From: Nesterenkonia sphaerica
GTDB taxonomy: Bacteria; Actinomycetota; Actinomycetes; Actinomycetales; Micrococcaceae
Reading direction: 5' to 3'
Length of the DNA stretch: 64,000 nt
NCBI RefSeq assembly: GCF_005771565.1
Contig: NZ_VAWA01000007.1
Location: 62,001 to 126,000, forward strand
Shown here one piece after another: positions 2,047 to 14,569 of the stretch. Position 1 is the first letter of the stretch. Each line of letters opens with the position of its first letter. Below the pieces are notes generated by a model. The model was not told where the DNA came from. It was given only the letters and a program-made list of their open reading frames with translations, and ran no database searches. Position numbers and translations under genes: made by a program.

Positions 2047-2313
2047 TCAGCGGATACCGAGTCGCTTCTTCAGCTCACGGAACCGCGTGATGTCTTTGCG
2101 CTCGAGGTACTTCAGCAAACGACGACGACGCCCGACCAGGATCATCAGCCCCCGGCGGGTGTGGTGATCCTGCTTGTGCTCCTTGAGGTGCTCGGTGAGG
2201 TCGGAGATCCGACGGGTCAGAACTGCGACCTGAACCTCTGGGGAACCGGTGTCGCCCTCGTGGGTGGCGTACTCCTCGATGATCTGCTGCTTGACAGCGG
2301 GATCCAAAGCCAT
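2047..2313 (-). CDS. rpsO: 30S ribosomal protein S15
   Basis: Primary 16S rRNA-binding protein of the small subunit platform. The 88-residue product has the usual length and the family core ([18 protein letters not shown], then the TGSPEVQVA segment, then [17 protein letters not shown]). The ATG at 2313 has AAGGAGCTTTACC directly upstream, a strong ribosome-binding site. In most actinobacteria this gene follows ribF or a nearby gene; here the stop of the soxA-soxG fusion lies only 130 bases upstream on the same strand, so readthrough from the methylamine operon into rpsO is possible unless a promoter lies in 2314-2443, where I see no convincing one. Confidence 0.97.
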
Positions 2314-2443
2314 GGTAAAGCTCCTTGTATGTGGTGCCGCGTTCAGGAATCCGGTCTCACCCGGCGCTGGCCACCGCGGACTGCAGCACAGCGACTTACC
2401 AGCCTACCTCACCAGTGCCGCAAGTGCCGCACCAGTCAGACCT

Positions 2444-5400
2444 TCACCGGCGAATGACCGACCCGGAGGCAGGATAACCGGTCTCCGCGACCCCGTGACT
2501 GCGCCCGGCATCCAGCAGCGTGGCGTGCAGGTAGCGGCCGGAGGAACGCTCACAGTGAAGGAGGTACCGCCGGCGCCCGCCTTCCTCGTCGTGCCGGATA
2601 AGGTCAGTCACCACGCCCGCCACATTGGTGCGCAGGGCCGCTCCGTCGGGGACCATGTCATCGGCGAGGTCGATGGCGCACACGGCGGCCAACAGCTCAG
2701 CGGCAGACTCTCCGCTGAGCTGAAACAGGGCTCGCCCGTGCGTAAGGTCCACGATTGAGGTGAGCTCCTCCGCATCCTGGAGGATCTCGCTGAGCTCGTT
2801 CAGGGCTGCGGCTCGTTCCCCCGGCTCAGCGAGCACCATCCATTCCCCGGGGCCTGAGCCCACCACCAGGAGCCGATCGCCCCAAGGCCGCGCCTGCCCG
2901 AAAGCCGCGGGCATCCGGTCAGCTGTGACACCGTCGGGGGCTGCACGCACGCTGATCTTCACCAGTGGAGTCACGTCCGCCAGGGTCAGAGGCGCCATGC
3001 TCTGCTCGGTCGAGACTTCCCATCCGGCGATGCTGGTCTTTGGCCCCGGTGCTGGTACTGAGCCCCGAGCCACGGGGTCTGCCCACCTCTCCGGTGCTTC
3101 GGGCCCGGTGTCATTGTTCAACCGGGTCCCCTCGGGGTCCACATGCGCCAGCTGCGGCATCACGGTTCCCTGTACGATCCGGCCGTCGGCCAGACGGATA
3201 TCCAGCACGGTGCCCGGGTCGCTGAGGGCACGCTCCACCTGGCCCAGACAAATGGAGCGGTTCAACGTCGGCGAATACCGACTGGAAGTGATCCGGCCAC
3301 CAATCCTTCCCGTAGGGAACAGGACTTGGGCGGCTTCCTCCGGCACGACGCCGGGATCCACGGGTTGAATGGCCACCAGGCGGTGGCCTGAGCCCTGCTC
3401 GTGCTGCCAGACCAACTCCGGCTTTCCTGCGAAGTCGGGCTTGTCCAGCTTTACGGCCCAGTCCAGCCCGGCGCTGTATGCCTTGGTCAGCCCGTCGGTG
3501 TCCTGACCGACAATCAGATGCCCCTTCTCCAAACGCAGCACCCGCTGCGCCTCAACTCCGAAAGGTGTGACTCCCAGGTCCTCTCCGGCGCTCAGCAGCG
3601 CCTCCCACACGTGAAGCCCGTATGAAGCCGGCACGTGGATCTCATAAGAGAGCTCCCCGGTGAACCCGATCCGCCAGAGGATGGACTCGTCCACCCCGGC
3701 CACCCGGCCGGTGCGCACCCGCATATAGCCGAACTCCTCCGCAGAGAGATCCACCCCTTCAGTCAGCCGCGACACCAACCGGCGGGAATGCGGCCCGGCC
3801 ACATTGATGCTGGTGTAGGCGGTCGTGACCGGAGTGACGTGCACCTGCCAGTCCGGGTGCATGGTCTGCAACCACTCCTCCACCCACTCCCACACCGCGC
3901 CGGCCCCTGAGGAAGTCGTGCTCATCACGTAGTGCTCCTCACCCAGGCGAGCGGTGACGCCGTCGTCGAAGACCACCCCGTCCTCGGCGCACATCACTCC
4001 ATAACGCACCCGGCCGATGGCCAGCCGCGACCACTTGTTCACGTAGAGCTGGTTGAGCAGCTTGGGCACGTCTGGGCCGCGGAGGTCCAGCTTGCCGATA
4101 GGGGTGACGTCGATGATGCCGACTCCCCGCCGCACCGCCTTCACTTCCGCCACGGGGTCCCCGTAGTGCTCCGGCCGGATCCATTGGCCAGCGACCAGCG
4201 GCACCGCTCCATGGGAGGCGTGCCAGGGCTGCAGCTCCGAGTACCGCACCGGATCGTAGTTCCGGCCAGCCAGGGCGCCCAGCGTGACGGAAGTGTACAT
4301 AGGCCGCCACGTGGTGGCACCGGTCTCCGCAATGGTCTTCCCGGTGGTCGACGCAATGACGGCCAGGGCGTTGACCAACTCGAACTTCCCCTGCGTGGGC
4401 CCCATCGTCACCGTGGTGTAGCGCTTGACCAGTTCGGAGCTCTCATAACCTTCCCGGACTGCGGACTCCAGATCCCGGGAGGTGACGTCTTCGGAAAAGT
4501 CCACCATGCCGTGGGTGGTGGAGCGGAACAGCTCCGGATGCTCGGGCACCGGCAGGGGGGCCACCGGGCCGGGGCTGCTGGGAGACTCATTCTCGGTGGC
4601 GGGCACACCAGTGGGGGTGGCCGCCACGGCGGCGCGACGCTTCCGCAGAGCGTGCTGAGCAGCCTGGATTCCCACTGCAGCGCCGTGCTGGTGGAGCTGC
4701 TCCGCATCGCCGTCTCCCACCAACCCCCCGGTGCTGTAGACCCCTGCTTGAGGCTGTGCGCTGGAGAGGAACCGGGCCGCTTGGGGAACGTACTCCGGTG
4801 CAGCCCCGGACATGTTCAACAGCGCCGTCGGTGCGGTCCAGCCGGTGGCGGTGACGAGCAGGTCTGCCTCGATCCTGGTGCCATCGGTGAGTTCGACCTG
4901 CTGCAGTGTCTTCCGTCCTCTGGCCCGGCGCACATTCCCGCCGGTGCGGGCATCCACCACGCGTGCCACCTCGATTCCCGCCCGCTCCAGGTGCGCCACG
5001 GCGGCATCGCCCTCAGGATTCGCAGTAAGCACCACCGCTCGTTCGCCCGGGGCCACCGCGTGCAAGGCGATGAGTCGGCGTGCAGCGCTGGAGAGCATCA
5101 CGCCGGGCAGATCATTGCCGGAAAAGATGTAGGGCCGTTCGATAAGTCCGGCGGCGACCACCAAGCTCCCTGTCCGTGTCTTCAGAATCCGCTCCGGCTC
5201 CCCCGGGGCGGGCTCGCGCTGAATCACCGCGCACCAGTTGCCGTCGTAACGAGCGGCGACGGTGGCATTGGTCAGCACGTGGATCCCCTCCGCCTTGCGG
5301 ACCTGGTCGGCTAACTCGGCCGCGCCGGCGGAATTGGCCCATCGGAGGTGTCCGCCCAGCTGGTGCTCCTCTTCCACCAGCATCACCCGCGCACCGGCTT

Positions 5401-5980
5401 GCGCTGCGGCCAGCGCAGCGGCCATGCCCGCGGGGCCGCCGCCGGCGACGAGCACGTCCGTGTGGGCGTAGCGCTTTTCGTACCTCTCACCGCGTGCCGA
5501 CTGGTCCACTCTGCCTGCGTGCACGAACTGGCGCAGCACTTTCTCATACGTCGGCCACAGTCGGCGTGGCCACATGAACGTCTTGTAGTAGAAGCCCGGT
5601 GCCAGGAAACGTCCGCCCAGCTGGGTCACGGCTTTCAGATCAAGGTGCAGCGAGGGCCAGGTGTTCTGTGAGGTCACGCCCATGCCCTCCCGGAGCAGGC
5701 GGTGGGCGGCGCGCACATTGGGCTCGTCGTCGACTTGGAGCATGCAGTGGGGGTCGTGCATGGTCGCGCTGAGTATTCCGCGCAGCCGGTGGTATTTGAA
5801 ACTCCGTGAGAAGACCTGCTCCCCCGCTGCGGCCAGGGCCGAGATGATGGAATCGCCTTCGTAGCCGCTGAGCCGCCGTCCGTTCCACAGGAACTGCAGC
5901 GTCCGGTCTCGGTCTATCACTTCGCCGGGTTGTGGGGGCAGGCGCCGCGGCTGCTGACCGGTCCGCTGGGTGGAGGTCAT
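2444..5980 (-). CDS. sarcosine oxidase-type alpha+gamma fusion; probable N-methylglutamate dehydrogenase MgdC-MgdD
   Basis: Large flavoprotein subunit of the heterotetrameric sarcosine oxidase family. Visible parts in order: a 2Fe-2S-ferredoxin-like domain (about 20-110) that keeps only one cysteine (C79), so no cluster is expected; an FAD/NAD-binding domain opening with AGGGPAG (179-185); a folate-binding GcvT-type domain (roughly 590-970); and a C-terminal ~198-residue segment (about 981-1178) resembling the separate gamma subunit SoxG/MgdD. Family alpha subunits are normally about 950-1000 residues, so this is an alpha-gamma fusion. No separate gamma gene is nearby. It overlaps soxD by ATGA. 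Because gmaS and mgsABC lie next door, N-methylglutamate is a better substrate guess than sarcosine: oxidation would give glutamate and methylene-tetrahydrofolate or formaldehyde. Confidence 0.88.
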   Translation of the reverse strand: MTSTQRTGQQPRRLPPQPGEVIDRDRTLQFLWNGRRLSGYEGDSIISALAAAGEQVFSRSFKYHRLRGILSATMHDPHCMLQVDDEPNVRAAHRLLREGMGVTSQNTWPSLHLDLKAVTQLGGRFLAPGFYYKTFMWPRRLWPTYEKVLRQFVHAGRVDQSARGERYEKRYAHTDVLVAGGGPAGMAAALAAAQAGARVMLVEEEHQLGGHLRWANSAGAAELADQVRKAEGIHVLTNATVAARYDGNWCAVIQREPAPGEPERILKTRTGSLVVAAGLIERPYIFSGNDLPGVMLSSAARRLIALHAVAPGERAVVLTANPEGDAAVAHLERAGIEVARVVDARTGGNVRRARGRKTLQQVELTDGTRIEADLLVTATGWTAPTALLNMSGAAPEYVPQAARFLSSAQPQAGVYSTGGLVGDGDAEQLHQHGAAVGIQAAQHALRKRRAAVAATPTGVPATENESPSSPGPVAPLPVPEHPELFRSTTHGMVDFSEDVTSRDLESAVREGYESSELVKRYTTVTMGPTQGKFELVNALAVIASTTGKTIAETGATTWRPMYTSVTLGALAGRNYDPVRYSELQPWHASHGAVPLVAGQWIRPEHYGDPVAEVKAVRRGVGIIDVTPIGKLDLRGPDVPKLLNQLYVNKWSRLAIGRVRYGVMCAEDGVVFDDGVTARLGEEHYVMSTTSSGAGAVWEWVEEWLQTMHPDWQVHVTPVTTAYTSINVAGPHSRRLVSRLTEGVDLSAEEFGYMRVRTGRVAGVDESILWRIGFTGELSYEIHVPASYGLHVWEALLSAGEDLGVTPFGVEAQRVLRLEKGHLIVGQDTDGLTKAYSAGLDWAVKLDKPDFAGKPELVWQHEQGSGHRLVAIQPVDPGVVPEEAAQVLFPTGRIGGRITSSRYSPTLNRSICLGQVERALSDPGTVLDIRLADGRIVQGTVMPQLAHVDPEGTRLNNDTGPEAPERWADPVARGSVPAPGPKTSIAGWEVSTEQSMAPLTLADVTPLVKISVRAAPDGVTADRMPAAFGQARPWGDRLLVVGSGPGEWMVLAEPGERAAALNELSEILQDAEELTSIVDLTHGRALFQLSGESAAELLAAVCAIDLADDMVPDGAALRTNVAGVVTDLIRHDEEGGRRRYLLHCERSSGRYLHATLLDAGRSHGVAETGYPASGSVIRR

Positions 5981-6225
5981 GGGTGCTCTCCCGGTTGCGT
6001 GGCGTTGGTGTAGGTGTCACGGGTGATGCTGATGAAGCGCCGGCACCCGGCGGAGTGGTACCACCTCTCCTCCACCGGTCCGCAGGGGTTTTCCTGAAGA
6101 TACAGATAGCGGTGCCACTGCTCCACCGAGGCCGGCTCCACCTCCGGACGTGGGGAGTGCGGACCGTGATGACGGAATTCGGTCACGTTGCGCGGCCCGC
6201 ACCAAGGGCAAGGGAGCTGCATCAT
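5977..6225 (-). CDS. sarcosine oxidase-type delta subunit; probable MgdB
   Basis: Small zinc-binding subunit of the heterotetrameric sarcosine oxidase / N-methylglutamate dehydrogenase complex. The 82-residue product starts MMQLPCPWCGPR, with the family's first cysteine pair (C-P-W-C), and has a later HSAGCRRF segment that supplies further zinc ligands. I chose ATG 6225 over longer frames because AAGGAGGT lies seven bases upstream and because the family begins exactly here. The stop overlaps the start of the alpha-gamma gene by four bases (ATGA), which indicates translational coupling. It lies 55 bases after soxB. Confidence 0.9.
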   Translation of the reverse strand: MMQLPCPWCGPRNVTEFRHHGPHSPRPEVEPASVEQWHRYLYLQENPCGPVEERWYHSAGCRRFISITRDTYTNATQPGEHP

Positions 6226-6280
6226 CTCAGGGACCTCCTTGGGAGTAGGTGGTGACGCCGGGCCTGGCGCCGCGATGTGA

Positions 6281-7615
6281 TCAATGGCCCACCGCCGCCG
6301 CGCCTTTCTCACCGACGAGCCGGCCCGAACGGAAGCGATCGAGCCCGAAGTGGGCGATGATCTGCGGGGTGCGGCCGGTGCTGATGCACTCAGCCATAGC
6401 TTCTCCGGCCACGGGTCCGGCCTTGAAGCCATAGGTGCCCCAGCCCACATCCACGAAGAAGCCTTCCACCGAGGTTGGCCCCATGATGGGCGAGTAGTCG
6501 GGGGTCATGTCACAGAGCCCGGCCCATTGGCGCAGCAGCCGCATCTTGGACAAGCCCGGCATCAGTTTCAGCACATTGGAGGCCAGTCCTTCAACGAACT
6601 CGAGGGACCCGCGCACCGAATAGGAGGTAAAGGGGTCCACGCTGGCGCCGAAGACCAGTTCTCCGCGGTCGGTCTGGCTGACGTAGACGTGCAGAGTTCC
6701 GGAGACCACCACGGTGTCGAGAAAAGGTTTGACGGGTTCGGTCACCGCGGCTTGCAGCGGGGAGGTGGTCACCGGCATCTCAACTCCGGCCATCTCAGAG
6801 ATCAGTGTTGCCCAGCCAGCGGTGCAGTTGACCACCGTCCCGGTGGCAATGTCCCCGCGCGTGGTGCGGACCCCCGTGACGCGGCCGTGACGGACGTCAA
6901 TACCGGTCACCTCGGTCTCCTGGTGCAGGTGCACCCCTAGACCTGCTGCCGCTCGGGCGTATCCCCAGACCACGGCGTCGTGCCGGATGATCCCCCCAGG
7001 GGGGTGATAGAGAGCCCCCAGGATGGGATACCTCGCCTGGGCAGAGGTGTCCATGCTGGGTACGAGCTTCTTGATCTCCTCCGGACCAATCACCTCGGAG
7101 TCGACCCCTTGGACCTTGTTCACCTCAGCCCGCCAGCGCATGGTTCTCAGCCCGCCGTCGTTATGCGCCAGAGTCAGGTGTCCACGCTGGGAAAACATCA
7201 CGTTGAAATTCAGCTCGCTGGCCAGGTTTTCGTACAGCTTCAGCGAACGGTCGTAGAACCTGACTCCTTCGGGGGTCAGATAGTTGGATCTCACGATTGC
7301 TGTGTTGCGGCCGGATCCGCCCCCGCCCAGATATCCCTTGTCCAGCACGGCGATATTCCGCACACCGTGATAAGCCGCCAAGTAATAGGCGGTTGCCAGC
7401 CCGTGGAGCCCCCCACCGATGATGACGACGTCGTAGCGGGGCTTCAGATCGTGGTGTCTCCAGACCTTCGGCCAGTCTGCCTTCGTCAGGCCTTTGGACA
7501 GCAGGCGCCCCGCGGAGTATCGAGGCTGGGGCGCTCGACGCGTCCGTCTGCGAGATGTCCTGCCTGAACCAGGGCGATTTGAATGACGACTCTGCACCGC
7601 GCCCCCGCTTTCCAC
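6281..7615 (-). CDS. sarcosine oxidase-type beta subunit; probable MgdA
   Basis: Flavin subunit that oxidises the secondary amine. Residues 62-90 form a Rossmann FAD site (YDVVIIGGGLHGLATAYYLA), followed by RSNYL, and RHDAV near 211-215 contains the histidine (H212) that carries covalent FMN in characterised heterotetrameric sarcosine oxidases. The frame can start at GTG 7615 (444 residues) or GTG 7597. The PRYSAGRLLSKG stretch near residue 31 resembles the true N-terminus of related proteins, but there is no start codon closer to it, so the first ~30 residues are uncertain. First gene of the minus-strand operon soxB-soxD-soxA/G and divergent from gmaS. Substrate preference cannot be read from sequence; context favours N-methylglutamate. 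Confidence 0.88.
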   Translation of the reverse strand: MESGGAVQSRHSNRPGSGRTSRRRTRRAPQPRYSAGRLLSKGLTKADWPKVWRHHDLKPRYDVVIIGGGLHGLATAYYLAAYHGVRNIAVLDKGYLGGGGSGRNTAIVRSNYLTPEGVRFYDRSLKLYENLASELNFNVMFSQRGHLTLAHNDGGLRTMRWRAEVNKVQGVDSEVIGPEEIKKLVPSMDTSAQARYPILGALYHPPGGIIRHDAVVWGYARAAAGLGVHLHQETEVTGIDVRHGRVTGVRTTRGDIATGTVVNCTAGWATLISEMAGVEMPVTTSPLQAAVTEPVKPFLDTVVVSGTLHVYVSQTDRGELVFGASVDPFTSYSVRGSLEFVEGLASNVLKLMPGLSKMRLLRQWAGLCDMTPDYSPIMGPTSVEGFFVDVGWGTYGFKAGPVAGEAMAECISTGRTPQIIAHFGLDRFRSGRLVGEKGAAAVGH

Positions 7616-7664
7616 TGCGAACTCTCTAGCCTTATTTTAATTTTTGTTCACATAATTGTCGCAT

Positions 7665-7751
7665 TTTTAGATCAGCTCACTGAGCCTGCTGGCAGGAGAC
7701 AGAATCGCTTTCAGCAGCCGAAGAAAAAGATGCAGTTGTATTGATCTAAAA
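7665..7751. promoter_or_regulatory. separated inverted repeat on the soxB side
   Basis: TTTTAGATCA at 7665-7674 and its exact reverse complement TGATCTAAAA at 7742-7751, 67 bases apart. The arms are too far apart for a simple RNA hairpin to be the obvious role; paired protein-binding sites with looping are more plausible. They lie 50-136 bases upstream of the soxB start. Confidence 0.4.
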
Positions 7752-7872
7752 TTGCACAGGCGTCCCTTAATTAAGTGGGCAGATGCGGCCACTACAAGAA
7801 CAGAAAGAATCTAGCCCCGCTGTGATGCAGTGACTAACCCCCAAAGGTAGACAAAATAGAACCATGGGCCTA

Positions 7873-7885
7873 CTTGACTGTCAAG
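7873..7885. promoter_or_regulatory. 13-base perfect palindrome, probable operator
   Basis: CTTGAC-T-GTCAAG, six-base arms around one base. The same TTGAC/GTCAA half-sites recur at 8000-8004, 8022-8026 and 8045-8049, on the gmaS side. A compact palindrome in a divergent promoter region is typical of a dimeric repressor site. Confidence 0.5.
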
Positions 7886-7999
7886 GGTGCGCTGCTCGCT
7901 CCACACCGTAGAAATTTCCGCGGAAATTGCGGGGTCCGGGCGGACGAGACGCATTCGCCGAACCGCATCAGAACCGCTAAACATTAGTCGCCTGAGCTA

Positions 8000-8026
8000 T
8001 TGACACTATAGCCGCGACAATGTCAA
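8000..8026. promoter_or_regulatory. TTGACA/TGTCAA inverted repeat upstream of gmaS
   Basis: TTGACA at 8000-8005 and TGTCAA at 8021-8026, 15 bases between the arms. The left arm equals a consensus -35 hexamer, but I see no good -10 at 16-18 bases, so it may be operator rather than promoter, or both. Confidence 0.45.
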
Positions 8027-8123
8027 GCTGAAATGGCGGAGAACGTCAACCGTCCGCAAGCGAGTGGTTCTTGTTCTCGGCTTCCTATCCTCCCGTCACT
8101 GCGATTTGGAGAGAGGGCGCACC

Positions 8124-9521
8124 GTGACAATTGCCCCGGATTCAAAAGACACCGTCAAAAAAGTTCTCGATGAAAATAATGTAGAATTCATTTTCGCCTC
8201 ATTCACGGAAGTCCGCGGGAAATCCAGTGCGAAGCTGGTGCCCGCTTCACAGCTGGACAATCTCTTCTCTTCTGGGGCGGGGTTCGCCGGCTACGCCGCT
8301 GGGGAGATTGGTCAGGGCCCGCACAGCCCGGACATCGAGGTCGTGCCAGATCCTGGGACTCTCCGTGTGGTCCCCTGGCAATCGGGCCTGGCGCATATCA
8401 TCGGTGACGCCCGCGTCGACGGTGAGGAGTGGCCTTACTGCCCCCGGACCATACTGCGCAAGCAGACCGAACGGGCCCGAGACCTCGGCTATGTGTTCAA
8501 AGTCGGATTTGAGGCTGAGTTCACGCTGGTCGACTTTGATGAGCAGGGGAAGCTGATGGTGGCTGACCGGCTCGACAACTGGCCCAAGCCCTGTTACGAC
8601 GTCAAGGGGCTGACTCGCCAGTACGATTTCGTCACCCGCCTGTCCAAGTACGTGACGGATCTGGGCTGGGAGAACTATGCGGTGGATCATGAAGATGCCA
8701 ATGGTCAGTTCGAATGCAATGTGACCTTCTCCGACGCCATGGAGACGGCGGATCGCGCGGTCTTCTTCCGCTACATGACTGAAACGGTCGCTCAGGAATA
8801 CGGAGTCATCGCGACCTTCATGCCCAAGCCCTTTACACACAACACCGGCAACGGCTTCCACTACACCATGAGCCTGTGGGACGCCGAACGGGACGTCAAC
8901 CTCTTCGCTGACCCCGATGATCCGCGCGGCCTGGGCCTGTCGAGGCTCGGATACCAGTTCGCCGCCGGCATCCTGGCCCACGCCCCCGGTTATATGGCGA
9001 TGGTCAACCCGACGGTGAACTCCTACAAACGGATGAAAGCCGGCACGGAGTCAGTGCGGACGTGGGTGCCGGTAGCGGTCACCTACGGAGGAAACAACCG
9101 GACTCAGATGCTGCGCGTGGCTCGCACCGGCGCCATTGAGGATCGCACACCGGACTTCTCGGGAAGCCCGTACCTGGGGTTCACCGCTGCGCTGGCTGCC
9201 GGCTTGGATGGAATCGAGCGCGGGCTGGACCCCGGCGAGCCCAACACCAGCAACCTCTACGACGTCCCCCCGCAGGTTCTCGAAGAGCGCGGCATTCAAA
9301 TGCTGCCGCACAACCTCATGGAATCCGTCCATCACCTGCGGCAGGACGATGTGCTTCGCCAAGCATTCGGAAGAGTGCCGGTAGACGGCACCTACGGCGA
9401 ACCGACGGACAAGACCGAGGACTTCGTGGACTATTACGCCCGAATGAAGATGGACGAATATCACGACATCGCGGACATGGTCACCGATCACGAGGTCCGC
9501 CGCTACCTGCAGTTCCCCTGA
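8124..9521 (+). CDS. gmaS: gamma-glutamylmethylamide synthetase (glutamine synthetase family)
   Basis: First enzyme of the N-methylglutamate pathway: methylamine + glutamate + ATP gives gamma-glutamylmethylamide. The 465-residue product is a glutamine-synthetase-fold ligase with the metal-binding GFEAEF motif (128-133), the NGFHY motif near 243-247, NPTVNSYKR (295-303) and the ATP/glutamate-binding NNRTQMLR (324-331), all in the order of the family. I chose GTG 8124 because GGAGAGAGG lies just upstream and homologues begin near here; an upstream frame reaches 8064. Sequence alone does not separate GmaS from a type III glutamine synthetase (GlnT). The mgsABC genes downstream make GmaS the best reading. 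First gene of the plus-strand operon. Confidence 0.87.
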   Translation: MTIAPDSKDTVKKVLDENNVEFIFASFTEVRGKSSAKLVPASQLDNLFSSGAGFAGYAAGEIGQGPHSPDIEVVPDPGTLRVVPWQSGLAHIIGDARVDGEEWPYCPRTILRKQTERARDLGYVFKVGFEAEFTLVDFDEQGKLMVADRLDNWPKPCYDVKGLTRQYDFVTRLSKYVTDLGWENYAVDHEDANGQFECNVTFSDAMETADRAVFFRYMTETVAQEYGVIATFMPKPFTHNTGNGFHYTMSLWDAERDVNLFADPDDPRGLGLSRLGYQFAAGILAHAPGYMAMVNPTVNSYKRMKAGTESVRTWVPVAVTYGGNNRTQMLRVARTGAIEDRTPDFSGSPYLGFTAALAAGLDGIERGLDPGEPNTSNLYDVPPQVLEERGIQMLPHNLMESVHHLRQDDVLRQAFGRVPVDGTYGEPTDKTEDFVDYYARMKMDEYHDIADMVTDHEVRRYLQFP

Positions 9522-9561
9522 GCGACGGGTGCGCCACACCCTTGACCCTAGGACGGCCGAT

Positions 9562-10707
9562 ATGTTGAAACGCTCCCTTCTCACCACCTTGTTGGTCTGT
9601 CTGGCGTTGGTGATTCACCCCGCCGCAGCTCACGCCGCGGAGCTGGGTGAAGAGACCACCCACCTGTTTCAGTACCACCGGGGACAGGACGTGCTGTTCA
9701 TGCTCATGCTCGTGGCGTTCCTGATGCTGTTCATCCGACGCTACGAGTGGGGCGTTGCGCTGGCCACGCTCCTGGTCCTGTCCGTCAGCTGGCCGCTGTA
9801 CCTGATCGGCCACACCCAGGTCCTCGGCCATGACCTCAACATCGAGGCCATCATCCTGGCGCTGTTCGCCTCGATCACTCTGGTGATCGCCATCGGGGTC
9901 TTTCTGGGTCACATCTCCACTATCCATTACTTGTTGGCCGGGGCGCTGTTCGTTCCGGCCTATATGTTCAACGAATGGTTCCTCTTTGACTTCCTCGACG
10001 GCGTCTACGACGCCGGAGGGTCGGTGCTGGTCCACATGTTCGCCGCTTACTGGGGCTGGGGGGTCATCCTGGCGCTGCGCAACAAGCGGGTCAGCGACGA
10101 GCCGATGAAGACCAGCGTGCACAGTGTGTCCTTCGTGTGGCTGGCCAGCATGCTGCTCTTTGTTCTGTGGCCTTCGTTCGTCACCGCCCTGCTGCCCCCC
10201 GAAGACATCATCCCGGGAATGATCAATACCTACCTGGCGCTGATGGCGGCCACCTTGGCCACCTACGTGCTGCTCTACCTGCTCAAGCGCACAATCGACC
10301 CGCTGATCTTCACCTACGCCATCCTGGCTGGAGGCGTGGCGATCGGCGCCACCGTAGACCTGGCCAATCCGTGGCAGGCCTGGCTGATCGGGCTGGTGGG
10401 TGGAATCGCCTCCACCCTGTCCTTCATCTACATCAACGACTGGCTGTGCCGGAAGACCGGGGTGCTGGACACCATGGGCGTCCAGAATCTGCACGGCATC
10501 CCGGGAATCGTCGGCGGCTTGGCCCCGATCCTCATCGTCGGCGCCGGCCTGAGTCAGCTGGGCGCGGTGGCCGGGACCTTTGTCATCGCATTGGCTACCG
10601 GAGTCGTCACCGGGCTGATCCTGCGACTGTTCAAACCCCCGGCTATCATGCTCGACGATGCGGAGTCCTTCCCCATCGATACCATGCGAGCCACCGATCC
10701 CGCGTGA
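9562..10707 (+). CDS. Rh/Amt-family ammonium or methylammonium channel (Rh-like)
   Basis: Integral membrane channel with about eleven hydrophobic segments after an N-terminal signal-like segment ending AAAHA. Both pore histidines of the Amt/Rh superfamily are recognisable, in YDAGGSVLVHMFAAYWG and in GVQNLHGIPG. The surrounding residues resemble eukaryotic and bacterial Rh proteins (HTFGAYFG and HNLHGMPG types) more than AmtB. ATG 9562 is preceded by AGGA at eight bases; GTG 9529 is possible but less likely. It lies 40 bases after gmaS and 53 bases before mgsA in the same direction, so uptake of methylammonium or ammonium, or release of ammonia, for this pathway is the natural inference. 381 residues. 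Confidence 0.85.
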   Translation: MLKRSLLTTLLVCLALVIHPAAAHAAELGEETTHLFQYHRGQDVLFMLMLVAFLMLFIRRYEWGVALATLLVLSVSWPLYLIGHTQVLGHDLNIEAIILALFASITLVIAIGVFLGHISTIHYLLAGALFVPAYMFNEWFLFDFLDGVYDAGGSVLVHMFAAYWGWGVILALRNKRVSDEPMKTSVHSVSFVWLASMLLFVLWPSFVTALLPPEDIIPGMINTYLALMAATLATYVLLYLLKRTIDPLIFTYAILAGGVAIGATVDLANPWQAWLIGLVGGIASTLSFIYINDWLCRKTGVLDTMGVQNLHGIPGIVGGLAPILIVGAGLSQLGAVAGTFVIALATGVVTGLILRLFKPPAIMLDDAESFPIDTMRATDPA

Positions 10708-10760
10708 GAACCGATATGGTCCTATGACCACCGACCACTGCAACAAAGGAGGCTCGTTCC

Positions 10761-11654
10761 ATGTGCGGGATCATCGGTCTTCACCTCAGGGACCCTGTGT
10801 TGTACGAACGTCTCGGCCCGCTCATGGCTGAGATGCTCCAAGGCATAGTGGTCCGGGGGCCGGACTCGGCCGGTGTCGCCATCTACGGAGACAAGTCCCG
10901 GTGCCCTGCGGGACAGGCCGCGGTGTCGCTGCTGAATGCGCCTGAGGGCTTGGCGGATGCTGTGGCCAGAGAGCTTCCCGGAGTCGAGGAGGTGCATACA
11001 GAACTGGTCGGTGAGACGACAGTGCTCACCGCAGCCACGTCGCCGGAGCTGCTGTCCGCAGCGGTCGCCGCCGTCTCTCCCGAAAGCCGCGTGGTGGGCA
11101 TGGGGGAAGACATGGTGATCTACAAAGGCATTGGAAACCCCAATGAGCTGGCGCGGACCTACCGGCTGCAGGAGGCCCGAGGCTGGCAGGGCATCGCCCA
11201 CACCCGAATGGCCACGGAGTCTGCAATCAACGCCGAAGGGTGCCATCCGTTCTCCGTGGGTGTCGGAGTGAGCTTGGTGCACAACGGCTCGTTCTCAAAT
11301 TACGCCTCGATCCGGCGCGAGCTGGAGGCGGAGGGCATCACCTTCGACTCCCACAACGACACCGAGGTCGGGGCCCGGTTTGTCGCCTCGCGGCTGGCGA
11401 AGGGCGACGACCTCTCCACTGCACTGACGGCACTGAGAAAGAAATTCGACGGTTTCTACACCTTGCTGGTGACCACGGAAAAAGGCTTCGCGGTGGCGCG
11501 CGACGAGTTCGCCTGCAAGCCGGCGATCATCGCCGAACACCCTCGATGGGTCGCCATGGCCTCGGAGTTCCAAGCTCTGGCCATGCTGCCAGGCATCGAC
11601 GAGGCTCATGTTTTCGAACCGCTACCAGGACGGGTATACGCATGGAGTCGCTGA
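10761..11654 (+). CDS. mgsA: N-methylglutamate synthase subunit A (class II glutamine amidotransferase domain)
   Basis: Ntn-type amidotransferase subunit that hydrolyses the gamma-glutamyl bond and channels the amine to MgsC. The catalytic cysteine follows the initiator methionine (MCGIIGLH). RGPDSAG (32-38), AHTRMATES (146-154) and HNGSFSN (174-180) match the substrate-binding segments of PurF and GltB amidotransferase domains. The 297-residue length equals a free-standing GATase_2 domain. ATG 10761 has AAAGGAGG upstream. It overlaps mgsB by 13 bases. The three-gene set that splits glutamate synthase into amidotransferase, beta-helix and FMN subunits is diagnostic for N-methylglutamate synthase or closely related GlxBCD-type enzymes. 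Confidence 0.88.
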   Translation: MCGIIGLHLRDPVLYERLGPLMAEMLQGIVVRGPDSAGVAIYGDKSRCPAGQAAVSLLNAPEGLADAVARELPGVEEVHTELVGETTVLTAATSPELLSAAVAAVSPESRVVGMGEDMVIYKGIGNPNELARTYRLQEARGWQGIAHTRMATESAINAEGCHPFSVGVGVSLVHNGSFSNYASIRRELEAEGITFDSHNDTEVGARFVASRLAKGDDLSTALTALRKKFDGFYTLLVTTEKGFAVARDEFACKPAIIAEHPRWVAMASEFQALAMLPGIDEAHVFEPLPGRVYAWSR

Positions 11655-12352
11655 ACGACGGGACCGCGGAGTTCGACCTCGCGGTGCGGAGCGTGCGGGA
11701 GCTGAACGCAGAGTTGCACGCTCCGAGCGTCGAACGGTACGTGGTCAGGCATCCCCGGGGCGCCCATGCGGTGGCGGCCGGGGTCAACCGCCCCCTTCAG
11801 GTGCGCATCGACGGTGACGTCGGCTATTACTGTGCCGGGATGAACCAGGAGGGGCTGATCACAGTCGATGGGTCTGCCGGCCCCGGGGTGGCGGAGAACA
11901 TGATGTCCGGAGTGGTGCGCATCCGAGGCAACGCCTCCCAGTCCGCTGGCGCGACTGCTCATGGCGGACTGCTGATCATCGAGGGAAATGCTTCCACCCG
12001 CTGTGGAATCTCCCTCAAAGGGGGAGACATCGTCGTCGGCGGCGAGATGGGAGCCATGGGGGCCTTCATGGCGCAGGCCGGGCGGATCGTGGTCTGCGGT
12101 GACGCCGGGGATGGCTTGGGCGACTCCATCTATGAGGCCCAGATCTACATCCGCGGAAGCGTCGGGACCCTGGGTGCCGACTGCGTGGAGAAGGAGATGC
12201 GCGCCGCTGACCGAAAGTCCCTCCAAGACCTGCTGGTGCAAGCCGGTATGACATCACAGGCAGAGGATGCGTCCTACCTGGACGGATTCCGCCGCTACGG
12301 CTCAGCACGCACGTTGTATCACTTCACCCACGACCATGCCGGGAGTTACTGA
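11642..12352 (+). CDS. mgsB: N-methylglutamate synthase subunit B (GXGXG beta-helix domain)
   Basis: Structural subunit equivalent to the C-terminal GXGXG domain of glutamate synthase. The 236-residue product shows the repeated glycine-rich turns of that right-handed beta-helix, for instance SGVVRIRGNASQ, GGLLIIEGNAS, KGGDIVVGGEMG and GRIVVCGDAGDG. I start at ATG 11642, since the longer frame upstream is only a shadow of mgsA. It overlaps the 3' end of mgsA by 13 bases and its stop overlaps the mgsC start (TGATG), so the three subunits are translationally coupled and probably made in equal amounts. Confidence 0.88.
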   Translation: MESLNDGTAEFDLAVRSVRELNAELHAPSVERYVVRHPRGAHAVAAGVNRPLQVRIDGDVGYYCAGMNQEGLITVDGSAGPGVAENMMSGVVRIRGNASQSAGATAHGGLLIIEGNASTRCGISLKGGDIVVGGEMGAMGAFMAQAGRIVVCGDAGDGLGDSIYEAQIYIRGSVGTLGADCVEKEMRAADRKSLQDLLVQAGMTSQAEDASYLDGFRRYGSARTLYHFTHDHAGSY

Positions 12353-13686
12353 TGCGAAGCCCTGAAGACCGTGGCCTCCGTGAGTCCGCTACTTTTGACC
12401 GCGCAGCCATCACAGCCATTCAGGCCGCCGCAGCCACCGGTGTGTACGATATCCGCGGCTGGGGGGCCAAGCGACGCGTCCCGCACTTTGACGACCTGCT
12501 GTTCCTCGGATCCTCCATGTCCCGGTATCCCCTGGAGGGATACCGGGAGCGGTGCGACACAGACGTAGTCCTCGGAGATCTCCACGGTGCTGAGCCCATC
12601 CACATCAAGATTCCGGTGACAATCGCCGGGATGAGCTTCGGCGCACTCTCCGCCCAGGCCAAGGAGGCCCTGGGCCGGGGCGCCTCGAAGGTCGGCACCG
12701 CCACCACCACCGGTGACGGAGGCATGACAGAGGAGGAACGGGGTCACTCAGACAAACTGATCTACCAGCTCCTGCCCAGCCGCTACGGGATGAACCCGGA
12801 CCATCTGCGAGCTGCCGATGCTCTGGAAGTGGTGCTGGGCCAAGGAGCCAAGCCCGGTGGCGGTGGGATGCTGCTGGGACAGAAGATCTCTGAACGCGTC
12901 GCCGAGATGCGTACGCTGCCGGCGGGAATCGACCAGCGCAGCGCCTGCCGTCACCCCGATTGGACCGGACCGGACGACCTCACGATCAAGATCAACGAAC
13001 TGCGCGAGATCACCGACTGGACGAAGCCCATCTTTGTGAAGATCGGCGCTTCCCGGCCGTATTATGACGTGAAACTGGCAGTCGCCGCCGGTGCTGACGT
13101 GGTGGTGCTCGACGGTATGCAGGGCGGGACGGCGGCGACCCAGGAAGTCTTCATCGAACACGTCGGCATTCCCATTCTGGCGGCACTTCCGCAGGCGGTT
13201 CAGGCCTTGCAGGAGCTGGGGATGCACCGCAGAGTGCAGTTGGTCGCCTCAGGGGGAATCCGGCATGGTGCTGACGTCGCGAAAGCACTCGCCATGGGCG
13301 CCGATGCGGTCTCCATCGGCACGGCCGCACTGATCGCCCTGGGGGACAATGATCCCAAGTACGCTGAGGAATACGAGAAGCTCGGCTCAGCCGCTGGGTA
13401 TTACGACGATTTCCAGGATGGCCGTGACCCGGCGGGCATCACCACCCAGGATCCTTATCTGGCGGCGCGGCTTGACCCGGTGGAGGCCGGTGACAGGCTG
13501 GCCAATTATCTCAGGGTGCTCACCCTGGAGGCGCAGACTCTGGCCAGAGCCTGCGGCAAGTCTCACCTGCTGAATCTTGAGCCCGAAGACATGGTCTCAC
13601 TCACGGTGGAGGCGGCTGCGATGTCTCGCATTCCTCTGGCGGGGACATCATGGATCCCCGGTGCCGAAACCCGCGGCGCTGAATGA
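12352..13686 (+). CDS. mgsC: N-methylglutamate synthase subunit C (FMN-binding glutamate synthase domain)
   Basis: Catalytic FMN subunit, homologous to the FMN-binding domain of glutamate synthase, that forms N-methylglutamate. Recognisable: GGMLLGQKIS, the KIGASRPYYDV strand, DGMQGGTAATQ and the phosphate-binding VASGGIRHGADVAKALAMGADAVSIG region cut into its usual pieces. The three cysteines that hold the 3Fe-4S cluster in classical glutamate synthase are absent; the matching stretch reads YYDDFQDGRDPAGITTQDP, as in the stand-alone GlxD/MgsC family. 444 residues, normal for the family. Last gene of the plus-strand operon; it ends 19 bases from the convergent methyltransferase gene. Confidence 0.88.
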   Translation: MRSPEDRGLRESATFDRAAITAIQAAAATGVYDIRGWGAKRRVPHFDDLLFLGSSMSRYPLEGYRERCDTDVVLGDLHGAEPIHIKIPVTIAGMSFGALSAQAKEALGRGASKVGTATTTGDGGMTEEERGHSDKLIYQLLPSRYGMNPDHLRAADALEVVLGQGAKPGGGGMLLGQKISERVAEMRTLPAGIDQRSACRHPDWTGPDDLTIKINELREITDWTKPIFVKIGASRPYYDVKLAVAAGADVVVLDGMQGGTAATQEVFIEHVGIPILAALPQAVQALQELGMHRRVQLVASGGIRHGADVAKALAMGADAVSIGTAALIALGDNDPKYAEEYEKLGSAAGYYDDFQDGRDPAGITTQDPYLAARLDPVEAGDRLANYLRVLTLEAQTLARACGKSHLLNLEPEDMVSLTVEAAAMSRIPLAGTSWIPGAETRGAE

Positions 13687-13705
13687 TCCGGTCCGCTTGC
13701 GGATC

Positions 13706-14569
13706 TCATCTGCGCCGGGCCGTGTGCAGCACCGTGATCTGCGGCAGCACCACCTCATGGTCCGCCTCCAGACCCAGTTCACCGAACAGGAATTCCTCCA
13801 GATTGGTCCGCCGAGTGGCCCGACTGGCAGGCGAGGCCGAGAGCCAGGAGCTCAGCGTGGTGGCGTAGCGGAAAATCTCGCTCACACTCAGAGTGCGGCT
13901 CCACCGGTATTCGACGCTGTGGATGGGCATGAAGTACACCGGGTCCAGCCGGGGCTGCCACCCCGCACGGTAGACATCCCCGGCGCGCATGATGCGGGTC
14001 AGCCTGTGCACGGTGGGGTCAGCGGTGTCCAGGTAGTTCCACAACAGTGCCAGGGACCCACCGGGACTCAGCAGCCGGAACGCTTCGTCCTGAGCCGCAG
14101 CCGGGTCGAACCAGTGCCAGGCCTGGGCTGCCACCACCAGATCTGCACAGTCATCGGGCAGACCGCTGCATTCATAGGAGGCGCAGTGCCCCTGCACCCA
14201 GGAACGGTTTCCGGCCACGGCACGCGAGCTCTCCAGAAGAATGTCCAGCATGGGAACGCTGGGCTCCACGGCATGCACATGCGCTCCGGCCTCCAGCAGC
14301 TGCCGGGTGAGAATTCCCGTGCCAGCGCCGAACTCCACGACACTGGGCAGCTGGTGAGTACCGCCCTCTGCTGGCTGCGCCGGCCGGACCTGACTCAGCG
14401 TCTGCGTCACGGCGCGAGCGGGGTAACGGGGGCGCAATGCATCGTACTCGGCGGCTTCGGCGGCAGTCTGCTGCTCTGCGAAAGAGCCGCCCAACTGGTG
14501 GCGCCGCTGCGCTGAGACAATCTGCGGCTGCGCGTCGGACCGCCGTTTCGGTCGGTTCGGCGGCATCAT
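13706..14569 (-). CDS. class I SAM-dependent methyltransferase
   Basis: 287-residue methyltransferase of the Rossmann type. Motif I, the SAM-binding EFGAGTGIL, is at 79-87; the acidic residue ending strand two follows in HAVEPS, and VVAAQAWHWFDP fits the post-motif region of the Methyltransf_11/25 families. The substrate is unknown. Its ATG overlaps the ribF stop by four bases (ATGA), so it is cotranscribed with the core genes rather than with the methylamine genes, which converge on it from the other side. The insertion boundary of the island therefore lies probably in 13687-13705. Confidence 0.8.
   Translation of the reverse strand: MMPPNRPKRRSDAQPQIVSAQRRHQLGGSFAEQQTAAEAAEYDALRPRYPARAVTQTLSQVRPAQPAEGGTHQLPSVVEFGAGTGILTRQLLEAGAHVHAVEPSVPMLDILLESSRAVAGNRSWVQGHCASYECSGLPDDCADLVVAAQAWHWFDPAAAQDEAFRLLSPGGSLALLWNYLDTADPTVHRLTRIMRAGDVYRAGWQPRLDPVYFMPIHSVEYRWSRTLSVSEIFRYATTLSSWLSASPASRATRRTNLEEFLFGELGLEADHEVVLPQITVLHTARRR

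Follow-up and report, generated by a model that had tools for sequence, protein, structure and literature searches.

The substrates of Rh proteins are still debated. The window analyzed here, a stretch of 64,000 nucleotides from Nesterenkonia sphaerica, contains an open reading frame that a preliminary description, made from the sequence alone, had read as an Rh-type channel rather than AmtB, placed between gmaS and mgsA. This locus therefore raises the question of which family the protein belongs to, whether its position among methylamine genes is more than a local arrangement, and what the channel would carry. The features concerned are as follows (positions in the window).

2050–2319, minus strand: rpsO, housekeeping gene, left boundary of the block, outside the cluster
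2444–5980, minus strand: mgdC and mgdD fused, SoxA-like plus SoxG-like, one 1178-aa open reading frame
5977–6450, minus strand: mgdB, SoxD-like subunit; the first ~78 codons of the open reading frame overlap mgdA and are probably untranslated
6281–7615, minus strand: mgdA, SoxB-like subunit of N-methylglutamate dehydrogenase, by homology
8064–9521, plus strand: gmaS-type synthetase (NCBIfam TIGR03105), putative gamma-glutamylmethylamide synthetase by context; probable start GTG 8124
9562–10707, plus strand: Rh-type channel, 381 aa; ATG 9562, stop 10707; signal-peptide-like N terminus; H158/H311, F102/F206, D150
10761–11654, plus strand: mgsA, glutamine-amidotransferase-like subunit of N-methylglutamate synthase, by homology
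11651–12352, plus strand: mgsB, GXGXG subunit, by homology; start approximate
12352–13686, plus strand: mgsC, FMN-binding glutamate-synthase-like subunit, by homology
13706–14569, minus strand: SAM-methyltransferase next to ribF, right boundary, chromosomal backbone, outside the cluster

Results

The channel is an Rh protein

The reading frame and its two motifs are present as first described, VHMFAAYWG containing H158 and NLHGIPG containing H311. In the alignment, these residues correspond to the twin His, F102 and F206 to the Phe gate, and D150 to the conserved Asp. The protein matches Pfam PF00909 (E 6.8e-29), but scores only 66.5 bits against the NCBIfam 'amt' model, whose cut-off is 343.3. 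Among PDB sequences (phmmer), it is nearer to Nitrosomonas europaea Rh50 (NeRh50; 2e-63), human RhCG (7e-40), and RhAG (1e-39) than to Amt, for which there was a single match (1.6e-5). Its AlphaFold2 model (pLDDT 89.9, pTM 0.87) has an Rh fold: the top Foldseek ranks are three NeRh50 structures (for 3b9w, rmsd 1.4 Å and TM 0.91 by target), followed by human Rh proteins (the RhAG-RhCE complex and RhCG) and then by Amts at TM ~0.75. NeRh50 (3b9w, 3bhs) shares the fold, the twin His, the Phe gate, and the conserved Asp with the window Rh, although the two are only 38% identical and NeRh50 falls in the sister group.

In a maximum-likelihood tree, run as the phylogenetic check that the preliminary description had proposed, Rh and Amt proteins separate at 100/100, with the window protein among Rh and outside Amt. 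This placement, together with the amt score below cut-off, rules out an AmtB identity, and the initial assignment to the Rh type holds. Within Rh, a 34-row clade (100/99), sister to canonical Rh at 97/80, groups the window Rh with Citricoccus and methanogen Rh proteins. RhCG and the Amts form long branches, leaving the root within Rh unsure, but the grouping of the window Rh with its actinobacterial, Peptococcaceae, and archaeal relatives is independent of them. The clade is distinct and was named Rh50_prok_meth by Matassi (2017; PMC5209957), who lists as members Citricoccus sp. CH26A, Acetohalobium arabaticum, three methanogens, and Trichomonas vaginalis.

A complete NMG cluster has been inserted into the chromosome

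The gmaS-type synthetase, Rh, mgsA, mgsB, and mgsC follow each other on the plus strand, and mgdA, mgdB, and mgdCD are divergent on the minus strand. As initially proposed, Rh lies between gmaS and mgsA, 40 nt downstream of the former and 53 nt upstream of the latter; AAAGGAGG stands ahead of mgsA. By homology, gmaS, mgsABC, and mgdABCD constitute a full N-methylglutamate (NMG) set, and no transporter other than Rh was recognized among the genes of the block. The mgdC-mgdD fusion is a single open reading frame in Nesterenkonia natronophila (L015) and in L016, and two overlapping frames in Pseudonocardia (L017).

This cluster of ~11 kb (2320–13705) interrupts a conserved ribF-methyltransferase-rpsO order. 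The site is empty in 23 of 29 congener loci, where RibF and rpsO flank the methyltransferase at a distance of 0.94–1.44 kb from each other; in the remaining six, the short flank examined shows no rpsO. N. natronophila carries the same insertion in the methyltransferase-rpsO interval, with RibF and rpsO 12.3 kb apart. The methylamine cluster is thus an acquired block, one without GC contrast (0.64, against 0.64 and 0.65 in its surroundings). The methyltransferase at 13706–14569 was considered as a cluster member and ruled out, as it adjoins ribF in congeners without Rh.

NCBIfam names the GmaS family (TIGR03105) type III glutamate--ammonia ligase, and we therefore infer from its genomic company that the synthetase at 8064–9521 would be a GmaS acting on methylamine. 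The family name could also be taken literally, with the gmaS-type gene as a glutamine synthetase and Rh as a second ammonium inlet in general ammonium scavenging, and Rh50 proteins do complement ammonium transport in yeast (PMC10433425). We regard this as highly improbable, since complete mgsABC and mgdABCD genes adjoin the synthetase, the genome encodes a canonical Amt elsewhere, and the archaeal members of the clade adjoin MtmB and not a glutamine synthetase (see below).

Rh proteins are rare in the genus and the phylum

The preliminary description had called bacterial Rh proteins rare, and the survey bears this out. A close homologue is missing from all 29 congeners searched (only two weak Amt-level matches), and Rh is found in 3 of 396 genomes sampled across the phylum, the genome of the window included, the other two being canonical. 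A scan of genomes from 84,980 species gave 273 relatives. Among the best 80 of these 273, only seven exceed the canonical Rh50 background of 35–42% identity to the window Rh: those of N. natronophila (91%), Citricoccus sp. CH26A (76%), and Pseudonocardia parietis (76%), a Peptococcaceae MAG (58%), and three archaeal contigs (43–47%). Within the order around the Methanomassiliicoccales contig, 31 of 147 genomes carry a clade Rh. Searching the class of the Peptococcaceae MAG yielded no further member, viral contigs gave no relative, and plasmids gave two distant partial matches only. Acetohalobium and Methanosalsum, both clade members according to Matassi, are absent from the loci retrieved.

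The clade is linked to monomethylamine genes in two unrelated pathways

Methylamine genes adjoin Rh at 35/35 sampled clade loci, so that the proposed link to methylamine handling proves stronger than one operon could make it and extends over two unrelated pathways. The four actinobacterial loci contain gmaS/mgs/mgd genes, with gmaS immediately upstream of Rh. Because the mgs and mgd genes are rearranged in Pseudonocardia and the gmaS-Rh adjacency is kept, we conclude that the gmaS-Rh pair is a stable unit. In the Peptococcaceae MAG, pylB and pylD precede Rh; after it come mtbB, flanked by two corrinoid protein genes, and then mtmB. The wider region of this MAG (L018:6938-21122) holds pylS (C-terminal part), pylB, pylD, pylC, mtbB, mtmB, and Rh in one pyrrolysine-dependent block. 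In 30 archaeal clade loci, mtmB and/or mtmC of the pyrrolysine-dependent pathway stands beside Rh, similar to the methyltransferase neighbors described for methanogen members by Matassi (2017; PMC5209957). With TAG read through, five MtmB proteins from four of these loci give PF05369 matches of 1.6e-219 or better.

In contrast, mtmB, gmaS, mgs, and mgd genes are missing from all 73 canonical Rh50 loci, whose flanks total 14.3 kb in the median and reach at least 3 kb on both sides in 48 of them; at one, L077, a weak match to a corrinoid protein lies 3 kb away. Across the methanogen order (n = 147), MtmB is present in all 31 Rh-bearing genomes and Rh in none of the 49 genomes lacking MtmB, a co-occurrence with a hypergeometric probability of 5e-7 when shared ancestry is ignored. 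The remaining 67 genomes have MtmB without Rh, which indicates that the clade Rh is not essential for methylamine use. Because the linkage passes down by descent, the 35 loci do not count as independent events; on the tree, it amounts to one origin plus at least one pathway change. Its weight lies in its persistence over a deep clade and through that change of pathway.

Amt proteins take the place of Rh beside gmaS in other Actinobacteria

Among 16 other actinobacterial mgsC loci, five have an AmtB-type protein adjoining gmaS, in the place of Rh, and at three others a divergent Amt lies in the vicinity. Marine methylamine gene neighborhoods are likewise drawn with amtB in a published account (PMC5520151). 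These amtB genes resemble the window Rh in encoding a channel of the Amt/Mep/Rh superfamily next to gmaS, but they are of the AmtB type, and in our tree, built with other Amts, Rh is split from Amt at 100/100. An Amt/Rh partner of gmaS is therefore a recurring theme, for which Rh is an uncommon substitute.

The five loci with AmtB-type amt, gmaS, and mgsABC (L201–L205) also contain a DAO-family protein with only 27–30% identity to MgdA and may encode a variant amine pathway. The divergent Amts near gmaS/mgs (L209:11961-13415, L213:6610-8082, L216:6190-7635) match PF00909, fall below the NCBIfam amt cut-off where scanned, and have Ala at AmtB F103 and Phe at W212.

Pore residues distinguish the clade from canonical Rh

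Five residues are fixed in the 34 clade members (I110, A171, T262, Y263, and M312 in AmtB numbering), at positions where 76/76 canonical Rh proteins have A110, G171, A262, N263, and C312. The outer gate Phe is conserved as F in the same 76 and in six Amts, whereas 30 clade members have I or V instead; only the four actinobacterial members keep it as F. The five pore-region changes and the loss of the outer Phe might retune the pore for methylamine. That the Phe-gate change is missing from the four actinobacterial members speaks against the methylamine reading. AmtB with F107 changed to Ala or Leu is still a fully active transporter (PMC6856177). Two arguments on the AmtB W148 position were dropped: two alignments place different residues there, and a Phe at this position, considered as a mark of gmaS-linked AmtBs, is shared by a Pseudonocardia Amt encoded elsewhere in the genome (L095).

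Discussion

A likely methylamine inlet

We consider it likely that the window Rh acts as an inlet for methylammonium/methylamine, with GmaS trapping downstream of it and Mgs/Mgd further on; we infer both substrate and direction. In this scheme, the Rh channel would admit methylammonium/methylamine into the cell, GmaS would trap it at once as gamma-glutamylmethylamide at the expense of ATP, and through MgsABC and MgdABCD, whose chemistry is predicted, the nitrogen would end up in glutamate and the methyl group in the one-carbon pool. The channel alone may concentrate little, and trapping by GmaS would then drive import, much as glutamine synthetase traps methylammonium entering through AmtB. 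By the same logic, other clade members would feed MtmB in methylotrophic methanogens and in the Peptococcaceae bacterium. Support comes from Rh being the only transporter recognized in the inserted block, and from Amt-family proteins holding the same position by gmaS in other Actinobacteria. In yeast, NeRh50 conducts methylamine in both directions, and N. europaea takes up less methylamine when the protein is lost (PMC10794816). Because NeRh50 conduction is bidirectional, the sequence does not fix the direction of transport.

The opposite direction has in fact been suggested, with Rh venting ammonium released by methylamine demethylation: Borrel (2014; PMC4153887) suggested ammonium export for ammonium transporters near Methanomassiliicoccales monomethylamine genes, and Matassi (2017; PMC5209957) for the clade Rh. 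Ammonia is a direct product of MtmB, and Rh channels conduct both ways (PMC4153887, PMC5209957). When methylamine serves as carbon or energy source, moreover, nitrogen must be shed. In the NMG route, nitrogen ends in glutamate. An ammonia vent would thus fit MtmB but the NMG route poorly, as no clustered NMG enzyme is expected to release ammonia. Furthermore, the gmaS-Rh adjacency outlasts the mgs/mgd rearrangement in Pseudonocardia, linking the channel to the step that traps the substrate. Since the two unrelated pathways share monomethylamine, we favor a methylamine inlet and regard ammonium export as unlikely.

The channel might instead carry another solute, either CO2, whose conduction has been proposed for some Rh proteins (PMC10433425), or a larger amine. 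The pore could be more open in most members, which lack the outer Phe of the gate. We give this reading very little likelihood, because the common neighbors of the clade are enzymes of monomethylamine; among the methylamine genes searched for, the dimethylamine gene mtbB occurs at one clade locus only (L018).

For the clade as a whole, the gene linkage suggests that it probably carries methylamine rather than ammonia alone; a separate Amt is present in 6/7 clade-carrier genomes checked. The fuller proposal, that methylamine and not ammonia is the physiological substrate of the clade, serving both NMG enzymes and pyrrolysine-dependent monomethylamine methyltransferases through a retuned pore, is one we put forward tentatively, as somewhat less probable than its converse.

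Relation to earlier work

The clade itself, the membership of Citricoccus, and the methyltransferase neighbors in methanogens were already known (Matassi, 2017). The role considered in that paper is ammonia export, homeostasis, or a gas channel; methylammonium is not mentioned, and neither, in the accessible part, is the Citricoccus gmaS (PMC5209957). In the literature searched, subscription papers excepted, we found no published gmaS-Rh link or methylamine-import reading. As far as we found, the gmaS/mgs/mgd link in four Actinobacteria and the clade-wide association with two pathways are new, and so are the difference from canonical Rh50 loci, the unoccupied site in congeners, the marker residues, and the proposal of import.

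The MtbP and MttP permeases of methanogens are, like the window Rh, encoded by transport genes within methylamine clusters; they differ in being assigned to other amines, dimethylamine and trimethylamine (PMC5688252). The same account places permeases in the dimethylamine and trimethylamine clusters and for monomethylamine lists only a low-homology candidate elsewhere (PMC5688252). The clade described here would point to a way for monomethylamine to enter methylotrophic methanogens. It also supplies natural variants of the Phe gate and, with its link to a single amine across two unrelated pathways, provides a clean test of substrate choice in the Rh family.
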